Shown here: positions 27,009 through 58,937 of the stretch, piece after piece
Position numbering within the stretch: position 1 is the stretch's first letter
Layout: each line of letters begins with the position of its first letter
The notes under the pieces: model-generated
Told to the model about the DNA's origin: nothing
The model's input: the letters and a program-made list of their open reading frames with translations, nothing else
The model's database searches: none
Translations under genes and position numbers: made by a program
Assembly: GCF_000285295.1 (NCBI RefSeq)
Contig: NZ_CADP01000004.1
Coordinates: forward strand, 1-64,000
From: Komagataeibacter europaeus LMG 18890
GTDB taxonomy: Bacteria > Pseudomonadota > Alphaproteobacteria > Acetobacterales > Acetobacteraceae
Reading direction: 5' to 3'
DNA: 64,000 nt

Positions 27009-27084
27009 TGGTGGAGCCAAGGGGAGTCGAACCCCTGACCTCCTGAATGCCATTCAGGCGCTCTCCCAACTGAGCTATGGCCCC
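27009..27084 (-). tRNA. tRNA-Ala (anticodon GGC)
   Basis: 76 bases including encoded CCA. On the minus strand the 5' acceptor arm is GGGGCCA and the 3' arm TGGCTCC with A and CCA. D arm GCTCAGTTGGGAGAGC, anticodon arm CTGAATGGCATTCAG with GGC in the loop, T arm with GGTTCGA. Reads GCC/GCU codons. Confidence 0.97.
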
Positions 27085-27182: not shown

Positions 27183-27827
27183 TTATTGCATGATGAGACG
27201 CTGTGCCCGCAACGCCTGCAGCAATGGCAGCAGCGGCAGCCCCATGATGTCGGAATGTGCCCCTTCTATATGGGAAAACAGGTGAATGCCCGCGCCTTCC
27301 AGCCGGTAACACCCGACACAGGACAGAATCGCCTCCCCCTCCAGCGCCAAGTAACGTTCCAGAAAGGAATCGCTGAAGGCACGCATGTGCAGCACGGGGC
27401 AGGCGACGTGCCGCCATGTCTCGCACCCGTCACGCAGCATCACCACCGCCGTATGCAACACATGCGGCCTGCCGCGCAGCGTGCGTAACTGCTGCCGGGC
27501 GTCGTCCATGCTTGCCGGCTTGTCAAACCATGCCCCATCGCATGACAGCATCTGGTCCGCGCCAATCACCGCCGCGCCATTGTCCATGCTGATGGCCCGC
27601 GCCTTGGCCCGGGCCAGTTCAAGGGCTGTCTGGCCCGCTTCCATCCCGCGGGCGCGGGCATGGTCGCGAATGGCATGTTCATCCACATCCGCCGCGCGGT
27701 AATCCGCCCGTATCCCTGCCGATTCCAGCAGACTCCGCCGCGCGGCAGAACGGCTGGCCAGTACTATCGGCGGCGACTCCGCCTGTAATGGCGGCGGCTT
27801 TAGTACTAAATTCGAGTCGTCTGGCAT
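27183..27827 (-). CDS. maf: Maf-like nucleotide pyrophosphatase
   Basis: Hydrolyses non-canonical or modified nucleoside triphosphates (dTTP/UTP or m7GTP type). 214 aa. N-terminal signature VLASRSAARRSLLESAGI (about 21-38) with the Ser/Arg-rich phosphate site, VDEHAIRD, ADQMLSCDG and the late CYRLEGAGIHLFSHIEG segment. Start at 27827 follows GGAGAGGGCG; longer frames run into the origin region. Divergent from hemE across the putative oriC. The sequence starts to be rich in GTAC already within its first codons (27761, 27803). Confidence 0.9.
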   Translation of the reverse strand: MPDDSNLVLKPPPLQAESPPIVLASRSAARRSLLESAGIRADYRAADVDEHAIRDHARARGMEAGQTALELARAKARAISMDNGAAVIGADQMLSCDGAWFDKPASMDDARQQLRTLRGRPHVLHTAVVMLRDGCETWRHVACPVLHMRAFSDSFLERYLALEGEAILSCVGCYRLEGAGIHLFSHIEGAHSDIMGLPLLPLLQALRAQRLIMQ

Positions 27828-28233
27828 CGCCCTCTCCGTACTGCCGAAGTGAAACAGGAAATTCGGCGCGTTCGAGTACTGGGGTACATGGGGACAGTAC
27901 TCCAAACAATTCTGTGCCGTACCGAGTACCGTGGACAACGGGTACACCTCCGTTCGCGGTGGGTTGTACACAGGGTCATGTCGGTACAATCTGGATAACT
28001 TCCCACGCCCACGGGAATCCTTGGAGTCGGAAACTGTACACTCTGTGGGAAAAGTGGGGTACGTTTTCGGAAACGTGGGTACCCCGTCATCCACAGCACT
28101 TAAAGCACATCAAAAAATTTCTTTCTCTTTTCTTTTATTGTTTTGAAAGAAGCGCGCGCGTTTCACCTGCCCGCTATCCGTCACGGCGAAAGTACGAGAT
28201 AGTCCGGCCACAACGAAACAGAACGACGGATCG
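27803..28233. other. probable chromosomal replication origin (oriC) between maf and hemE
   Basis: About 400 bases without a gene. DnaA-box-like 9-mers (consensus TTATCCACA/TGTGGATAA): TCTGGATAA at 27990-27998 and TCATCCACA at 28087-28095 with one mismatch, TTGTACACA at 27964-27972 and TGTGGGAAA at 28044-28052 with two. An AT-rich, pyrimidine-rich stretch follows at about 28100-28150, a candidate unwinding element. GANTC (CcrM) sites occur at 27814, 28014 and 28024. In Caulobacter and Rickettsia oriC lies next to hemE, and hemE is exactly here. Thirteen GTAC tetramers lie between 27803 and 28082. The hemE promoter must also lie in this stretch. Confidence 0.65.
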
Positions 28234-29295
28234 ATGACTGAAACACGCAAACCCCTGCTCGCCACCCTGTTGGGAGAGGCAACATGGCCACCTCCGGTAT
28301 GGCTGATGCGGCAGGCGGGTCGGTTCCTGCCAGAATTCCGGGCATTGCGTGAAAAGGCGGATTTCATAACCCGTTGCATGACACCGGACATGGCGGTGGA
28401 TATCACGCTGCAGCCCATCCGCCGCTTTGGCATGGATGGCGCGATCCTGTTTTCCGATATCCTCATCCTGCCATGGGCAATGGGGCAGTCCCTGGAATTT
28501 GTGCCCGGCCGGGGCCCCGTCCTTGGGGCTGTCCGTTCGATGGCCGACCTGGAACGCCTGGACCCCACGCGGGTGAAGCAGGCGACGCAGCCGGTCATGG
28601 AAACGCTGGCACGGCTGCGCAAGGCCGTTGACGGGCCGGATGCGATCGGTCCTGCAAAACCGGGGCAGGTCACGCTGATCGGCTTTGCCGGCGCCCCGTT
28701 CACCGTGGCGTGCTACATGGTGGAAGGCCATGGCTCGCGTGAGTTCGAGGAAACGCGCAGGCTGGCCTATACCGACCCGGCATTCTTCGACCGGCTGATC
28801 GAGTTGCTGACCACCGCCACGGCGGACATGCTGTGCGACCAGATCATGGCCGGGGCAGAAGCGGTCATGCTGTTCGACAGCTGGTCGGGGCTTCTGCCGC
28901 CGTCGCAGTTCCGCAGGCATGTCATCGAACCCGCGCGGCGGATTACCGAAATCATCAATGCGCGCCATCCCGGCGTGCCGGTGATCGGCTTCCCGCGCCT
29001 GGCCGGGCTTATGGCAATTGAATACGGGCATGTGACGGGCGTGAACGCGATGGCGCTCGACACCGGGGCGGACATGAAGGCCGTGGCGGAAAAGGTGCCC
29101 GATACGCTGGTGCTGCAGGGCAACCTCGACCCGATCCGTGTGCTGGCCGGGGGGGAGGGCATGCGCACCGAGGCCCGCTCCATCCGTGATGCGATGAAGG
29201 GCCGCCCCCATGTGTTCAACCTTGGCCATGGGGTCATTCCGACCACGCCGCCCGAACATGTGGGCGACCTGATCAAGACCATACGGGATGTATGA
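28234..29295 (+). CDS. hemE: uroporphyrinogen decarboxylase
   Basis: Decarboxylates the four acetate side chains of uroporphyrinogen III to give coproporphyrinogen III, cytoplasmic. 353 aa, normal. N-terminal signature PPVWLMRQAGRFLPEFRAL with the substrate Arg residues, AILFSDILILPWAMG with the catalytic Asp, and the second signature LIGFAGAPFTVACYMVEG. First gene to the right of the putative origin, a conserved alphaproteobacterial position. Followed 3 bases later by a HAD phosphatase gene and then hemJ. Confidence 0.97.
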   Translation: MTETRKPLLATLLGEATWPPPVWLMRQAGRFLPEFRALREKADFITRCMTPDMAVDITLQPIRRFGMDGAILFSDILILPWAMGQSLEFVPGRGPVLGAVRSMADLERLDPTRVKQATQPVMETLARLRKAVDGPDAIGPAKPGQVTLIGFAGAPFTVACYMVEGHGSREFEETRRLAYTDPAFFDRLIELLTTATADMLCDQIMAGAEAVMLFDSWSGLLPPSQFRRHVIEPARRITEIINARHPGVPVIGFPRLAGLMAIEYGHVTGVNAMALDTGADMKAVAEKVPDTLVLQGNLDPIRVLAGGEGMRTEARSIRDAMKGRPHVFNLGHGVIPTTPPEHVGDLIKTIRDV

Positions 29296-31494: not shown

Positions 31495-31570
31495 GGGGCT
31501 GTAGCTCAGATGGGAGAGCGCCTCGTTCGCAATGAGGAGGTCAGGGGTTCGATTCCCCTCAGCTCCACCA
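31495..31570 (+). tRNA. tRNA-Ala (anticodon CGC)
   Basis: 76 bases with encoded CCA. Acceptor arms GGGGCTG and CAGCTCC, D arm GCTCAGATGGGAGAGC, anticodon arm CCTCGTTCGCAATGAGG with CGC in the loop, T arm with GGTTCGATT. Reads GCG, a common Ala codon in this GC-rich DNA. Confidence 0.96.
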
Positions 31571-57216: not shown

Positions 57217-57293
57217 GCACCCGTAGCTCAACTGGATAGAGCACCAGACTACGAATCTGGGGGTTAGAGGTTCGAGTCCTTTCGGGTGCGCCA
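57217..57293 (+). tRNA. tRNA-Arg (anticodon ACG)
   Basis: 77 bases with encoded CCA. Acceptor arms GCACCCG and CGGGTGC, D arm AGCTCAACTGGATAGAGC, anticodon arm CAGACTACGAATCTG with ACG in the loop, T arm with GGTTCGAGT. A34 is expected to be deaminated to inosine, reading CGU, CGC and CGA. Confidence 0.97.
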
Positions 57294-58772: not shown

Positions 58773-58861
58773 CTTCCTGCCTGACCGGGGTGCCCATGAC
58801 ATGTGTGGGCTGAGATCACACCCGTTGAACCTGATCTGGGTCATGCCAGCGAAGGGAGGCT
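58773..58861 (+). promoter_or_regulatory. thiamine pyrophosphate (THI) riboswitch
   Basis: The conserved core is complete: GGGGTGCCC in the first arm, CTGAGATCACACCC, the pyrimidine-sensor stretch TTGAACCTGATCTGG, then ATGCCAGCGAAGGGA. It ends about 77 bases before the gene at 58938. In the family TPP binding lowers expression by terminator formation or by hiding the ribosome site; I could not see a clear terminator with a T run, so translational control is more likely here. Confidence 0.95.
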
Positions 58862-58937
58862 GTCCCGATCGGGACGCAAGCACCCGTTCCCTGCCTGCCG
58901 TGGATCACGGACGTCATGGAAAGGGAGCCCGTCATCC

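Follow-up and report, generated by a model that had tools for sequence, protein, structure and literature searches.

The window (the whole stretch of DNA analyzed here) comprises 64,000 nt from Komagataeibacter europaeus LMG 18890 (NZ_CADP01000004.1, positions 1 to 64,000). Its maf and hemE genes flank a short gap in and around which the tetranucleotide GTAC is densely repeated, together with words that resemble weak DnaA boxes and an AT-rich stretch (Table 1). The window also carries tRNA-Ala genes at 27009-27084 and 31495-31570, a tRNA-Arg gene at 57217-57293, and a TPP riboswitch at 58776-58874.

Table 1. Features at and around the GTAC cluster, in window coordinates.
Feature	Coordinates	Strand	Basis
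maf; 5' end carries GTAC 27761 and 27803	27183..27827	-	Pfam Maf, 3.7e-43
GTAC cluster, 15 sites: 27761, 27803, 27838, 27876, 27884, 27897, 27919, 27926, 27942, 27966, 27984, 28036, 28059, 28079, 28192	27761..28195	.	Site positions
Conserved core; nine GTAC positions (27876, 27884, 27897, 27919, 27926, 27966, 28036, 28059, 28079) shared by 65-73 of the 73 aligned origins	27876..28082	.	Alignment
TTGTACACA, weak DnaA-box-like word enclosing a GTAC kept in 73/73 aligned origins	27964..27972	+	DnaA likeness is our reading
GGATAA, perhaps one half of a weak DnaA box	27993..27998	+	Putative assignment
TCATCCACA, weak DnaA-box-like word beside GTAC 28079	28087..28095	+	Putative assignment
AT-rich stretch, 77% A+T, possible unwinding element	28098..28150	.	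Putative function
hemE	28234..29295	+	Pfam URO-D, 2.3e-110

A first-pass annotation of this DNA had listed 15 GTAC sites in 435 bp where composition would predict about one. Every position proves exact, and the region holds 15 copies against 0.73 expected from the window. The cluster was also said to lie exactly between maf and hemE, which is true of 13 of the 15 sites (gap 27828-28233) but not of the other two, which fall within maf at its 5' end. Among the 256 tetramers, GTAC is the most enriched in the cluster region relative to the window. The window contains 107 copies in total, and away from the cluster their rate is 1.45 per kb; no other 300 bp of it is as dense as the cluster, which reaches 13 GTAC over that length. 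When the 435 bp were resampled 2000 times under a first-order Markov model, GTAC averaged 2.6 copies, with a maximum of 9. A pattern of three GTAC with gaps of at most 18 bp occurs four times in the window, every time in the cluster, and none of 100 dinucleotide shuffles reached four occurrences. On either side of the 15 sites, no position carries more than 0.14 bit; with flanks this near-empty of information, the GTAC site reads as a bare 4-bp palindrome. GANTC is mildly enriched at the cluster too, with six copies in 27700-28233 compared with a window rate of 0.63 per 435 bp.

Several observations are consistent with a replication origin at this locus. The gene hemE often adjoins the origin in Alphaproteobacteria. 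The DnaA-like boxes previously reported for the gap are present as weaker words, such as TCATCCACA at 28087, but not as exact matches to TTWTNCACA, of which there are none in 27700-28233; the AT-rich stretch is present as described. The GC-skew trend of the window itself is weak, and because its genome is a 321-contig draft, skew was sampled in the chromosome of Gluconacetobacter diazotrophicus (NC_011365, titled complete), using 20 stretches of 20 kb that cover 10% of this one related genome. In this sample, the cumulative GC skew has its minimum in 2128001-2148000, the stretch with the cluster (from 2138562), in agreement with the origin placement of the first-pass annotation. The same stretch reaches 11 GTAC per 300 bp and the remaining 19 at most 5; GTAC is not as dense elsewhere in the window, nor in these 400 kb. 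The numbering of the G. diazotrophicus record starts near dnaA (L321, G011:C1:1160), with both the GTAC cluster and the minimum of the sampled skew near 2.14 Mb. No GTAC enrichment was found before dnaA: among 14 upstream stretches of 0-300 bp (five shorter than 200 bp, among them 0, 4, 63, 165 and 180 bp), 11 contain no GTAC and three contain one or two.

The cluster is a real and deeply conserved feature. When the 256 tetramers were ranked in the 600 bp upstream of hemE at 80 loci from one HemE scan, GTAC came first in 72, with 6-16 copies; the cluster is kept in relatives, in line with the first-pass proposal of a system belonging to acetic acid bacteria. The eight exceptions are Bombella, Parasaccharibacter, and Acetobacteraceae B3987, and a search for GTAC triples in seven of these eight genomes recovered the same core elsewhere in all seven (e.g., GTACCGAGTAC). 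The relocated cores of three Bombella and Parasaccharibacter genomes (L160, L161, and L162) contain 11, 12, and 11 GTAC per 400 bp and lie, from their coordinates, approximately 25, 23, and 21 kb from hemE. With the core displaced from hemE in the Bombella group and GTAC retained, the cluster goes with the origin core and is not tied to hemE. This bears on the idea that the sites are methylated while the cluster has a purpose other than the control of initiation, be it the marking of strands for repair, segregation, or hemE or maf expression. The presence of two GTAC sites inside maf would suit such a role; however, a core that holds 11-12 GTAC per 400 bp at a distance of 21-25 kb from hemE argues against it, and clustering would be needless for a repair mark. 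We regard this alternative as quite improbable.

A different question is whether GTAC matters as such. An alignment of 73 origins (the window and 72 loci, the eight exceptions being left out) contains, beyond the nine conserved GTAC columns of the core, 35 further columns in which GTAC occurs, some of them lineage-specific, with a mean of 4.9 further GTAC per origin. It could be argued that this is simply a conserved origin sequence with weak DnaA boxes and an unwinding region, in which GTAC occurs by chance and has no specific factor: the nine sites would then be conserved positions and nothing else, and one of them does lie inside a weak DnaA-like word. The further copies at 35 other columns speak against this, as does the first rank of GTAC across genera whose gap GC ranges from 0.30 to 0.66, and a chance origin of the motif seems to us very unlikely indeed. 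Masking the nine conserved sites lowers GTAC to raw rank 4 of 256, a weaker signal than the unmasked one; its count then exceeds the expectation of a second-order Markov model 2.1-fold, a model in which GTAC itself raises the trinucleotide counts. Searching the plasmid collection with the origin core gave no match. One Acetobacter pomorum contig carries a stretch rich in GTAC (L412:1052-1482, 8 per 350 bp) that is made up of GTACTGTAC-type palindromes, perhaps a regulator's operator; this stretch matches one A. pasteurianus plasmid at 98.6% and was judged unrelated to the origin cluster.

The first-pass annotation had suggested that a conserved GTAC methyltransferase might accompany the cluster, and a candidate was found that is probably GTAC-specific. 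It is a beta-class PF01555 enzyme encoded outside the window (G000:C320:115071-115961) next to mltA; the other PF01555 enzymes of the window's genome are CcrM and those at L084/L085, L086/L088, and L087/L089. A clear relative of the candidate, with 47-96% identity, occurs in all 50 genomes sampled from those of the 80 loci, and A. thailandicus retains the cluster (10 GTAC) though its enzyme is 47% identical. The enzyme was detected in 114 of 249 Acetobacteraceae genomes (E <=1e-30) and, in a sample of the class, in 5 of 387 genomes (E <=1e-60), all five of them Acetobacteraceae. A match to mltA adjoins its gene in 25 of 32 loci. All 33 candidate sequences contain the motif TSPPYN, and the DPFMG motif is near-invariant; SPPY usually denotes N4-cytosine methylation, though not absolutely. 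A structure model of the enzyme is mediocre (mean pLDDT 69), so its fold matches, the best of which are to cytosine-N4 methyltransferase, were used for class only. The SPPY motif and the beta-class fold together fit a predicted N4-cytosine methyltransferase.

Against the CcrM model, the candidate scores 68.4 bits, below the cut-off of 830, and the CcrM of the same genome 621.8 bits, also below this Caulobacter-type cut-off; the ccrM gene adjoins a gene for RNase HII. Two further classes were considered as the writer: 4 of 10 genomes examined have a PF02086 enzyme, and 7 of 12 have a PF00145 enzyme, the window's genome not among them; neither class can therefore be a general writer. The contig of the ccrM match also carries, approximately 0.5 kb away from it, a PF02086-type methyltransferase gene (L311, G000:C321:119730-120497).

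The relatives of the candidate point toward a particular specificity. RsaI cuts GTAC. Among the matches listed, the best annotated ones are a gene on a Paracoccus plasmid (52% identity), an uncultured phage (51%), and cyanophages (44-47%), after which identity falls to approximately 30%. In Synechococcus phages ACG-2014j and Syn19, the relative overlaps a gene that the depositors name R.RsaI endonuclease; the name is theirs, and the protein matches no family in Pfam, PHROGs, or NCBIfam. Over the recognition half of the candidate (residues 122-222), identity to the phage and plasmid relatives is 50-61%, compared with 38-43% over residues 30-121, a pattern expected of shared specificity; for the two methyltransferases that overlap R.RsaI-annotated genes, the recognition half shows 50-51% identity. 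A profile built from the two phage nucleases found a relative in 51 of 80 IMG/VR loci (L329-L408, the best 80 of 103), and in all 51 the RsaI-like nuclease frame lies upstream of the methyltransferase, directly so in all but L387 and usually overlapping it. In these 51 viral loci, the arrangement reads as a phage-borne restriction-modification operon. The same profile gave no match in 33 Acetobacteraceae loci of approximately 3.7 kb around the enzyme gene. M.RsaI appears in a listing in PMC6256690 as a GTAC enzyme of the m4C type. Likeness and motif cluster together suggest that the Acetobacteraceae enzyme would recognize GTAC, and two independent lines, the motif at the origin and the likeness to RsaI-paired enzymes, back it as the candidate writer.

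The distribution of enzyme and cluster across the family provides a further comparison. Of 91 genomes (G051-G141, nearly one per genus), 80 were searched for HemE, 11 enzyme-bearing ones being left out, and 77 were counted after two without a HemE match and one at a contig edge (G122) had been dropped. A cluster was counted wherever the 800 bp upstream of hemE include a 350-bp stretch with 4 or more GTAC. By this measure, 17 of the 33 enzyme-bearing genomes have one, as against none of the 44 enzyme-less genomes (Fisher p 2.4e-8, a value that ignores kinship). Two of the 17, G119 and G081, just reach 4 GTAC, and most of the sites in G119 are some way from the gap. The 16 enzyme-bearing genomes without a cluster are mostly deep-branching; the enzyme does not need the cluster, and is either older than it or independent of it. 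GTAC triples in 19 cluster-less or borderline enzyme-bearing genomes and seven enzyme-less ones revealed no origin-like cluster among the matches listed, where the densest run (G068:C22) reads as Tyr-rich codons and is not origin-like. Of the 73 rows of a HemE tree, 38 form the acetic acid clade (100/99), and 36 of these have both enzyme and cluster; the remaining two, the sister pair G111 and G077 (100/98), have neither. Their absence of both is one co-loss, and the tree flags the composition of G077. The enzyme-less G111, with a genome of 2.0 Mb, has no GTAC and approximately 14 DnaA-box-like words of the TGTGGATAACT type in the 800 bp upstream of hemE (L181).

These patterns bear on a further alternative, in which a family-specific protein binds the origin with GTAC as the core of its site, and methylation is absent or incidental. 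The many deep-branching genomes that have the enzyme without the cluster are in keeping with such a protein, as is the position of the conserved GTAC sites inside longer conserved blocks. However, flanks as empty as those of the 15 sites would be unusual for a 4-bp protein site, and none of the 44 enzyme-less genomes counted has the cluster. Domain IV of DnaA keeps DHTTV in 14 of 14 genomes, which makes a changed DnaA word unlikely as well. We consider a binding core of this kind unlikely.

The best reading of the evidence is instead a new system of the Dam-GATC kind, which would link a putatively solitary methyltransferase to oriC. In this system, GTAC would be written, probably as N4-cytosine, by the mltA-adjacent RsaI-type methyltransferase, beside which the 33 loci of approximately 3.7 kb show no RsaI-like nuclease, and the origin sites would be hemimethylated after initiation. 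A reader protein, or DnaA itself, may then sense hemimethylated GTAC; a sensing role for DnaA is suggested by the one conserved GTAC inside a weak DnaA-like box. Such sensing could delay or time re-initiation, as Dam, GATC, and SeqA do in E. coli. Methylation of GTAC in vivo, its m4C chemistry, and initiation control are what we infer from the combined evidence, and by analogy the hemimethylated state would most likely be put to use in initiation control. Taken as a whole, the explanation that the cluster is part of the origin, that GTAC is the word of a solitary RsaI-type methyltransferase, and that hemimethylation times re-initiation seems to us probable, with reasonable but far from full confidence.

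A broader scenario is also conceivable. In five enzyme-less genomes (loci L240 in G053, L229 in G141, L182 in G083, L177 in G104, and L205 in G072; G053 and G141 are of the same genus), GANTC is the top of 32 palindromes upstream of hemE, with 7-13 copies per 350 bp and no GTAC. It is possible that these GANTC-rich gaps reflect a swap of the origin mark. One family might then have exchanged its mark, with GANTC (CcrM-type) in some enzyme-less lineages and GTAC in acetic acid bacteria, where an m4C enzyme resembling those of phages or plasmids would have been domesticated as its writer and a putative SeqA-like reader of hemimethylated GTAC would control initiation. We offer this exchange tentatively, as a scenario about which we are more doubtful than convinced.

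The cell-cycle epigenetics of Alphaproteobacteria is mostly that of CcrM and GANTC; here, the family seems to have, beside an ordinary CcrM, a second methyltransferase of its own whose word is packed into the origin. If the proposed system is confirmed, it would provide an m4C model of origin marking in an industrial family with tractable members (Komagataeibacter, Gluconobacter, and Acetobacter), as well as a handle for the construction of oriC vectors. The pair G111 and G077 would then represent a natural loss experiment, with enzyme and cluster gone and one gap full of DnaA boxes.

The Dam system employs GATC, m6A, and the known reader SeqA, whereas the present one would employ GTAC and predicted m4C. 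The two are alike in that a short palindrome is packed at the origin and the cluster is tied to the presence of the methyltransferase, an association described for Dam and GATC in Gammaproteobacteria in the main text of Blow et al. (2016; PMC4752239). That text also reports origin motif clusters with solitary methyltransferases for TTAA in Arthrobacter, CTCGAG in Nocardia, and an m4C motif in Haloarchaea, systems with the same comparative signature (one of them m4C) but in other lineages and with other words (PMC4752239). The first-pass annotation knew of no description of such a system; this seems to hold for the GTAC case but not for the kind of system, which is not new given the clusters already known for other motifs (PMC4752239). 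The main text of PMC4752239 has no occurrence of GTAC, Acetobacter, Gluconobacter, or Gluconacetobacter, and searches of open-licence PMC full text brought up no account of origin GTAC clusters in acetic acid bacteria; REBASE may already list a GTAC methyltransferase for them. In Burkholderia cenocepacia, a member of another class, PMC7364216 likewise places methylation motifs at origins, one of them at the end of DnaA boxes; however, the words (CACAG and GTWWAC) differ, the methylation is of adenine, and it was measured by sequencing (PMC7364216). RsaI restriction-modification likely shares both word and methyl type with the present system, through relatives that overlap R.RsaI-annotated genes in cyanophages; it differs in that the Acetobacteraceae enzyme has no RsaI-like nuclease nearby (33 loci), and the likeness runs via phage relatives, not via the sequence of M.RsaI. 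CcrM, finally, is likewise a PF01555 enzyme, solitary as the candidate seems to be, and the window's genome carries it as well, but its word is another, the recognition half of the candidate is 19% identical to it, and the two proteins score 68 (candidate) versus 622 bits (CcrM) against the CcrM model.
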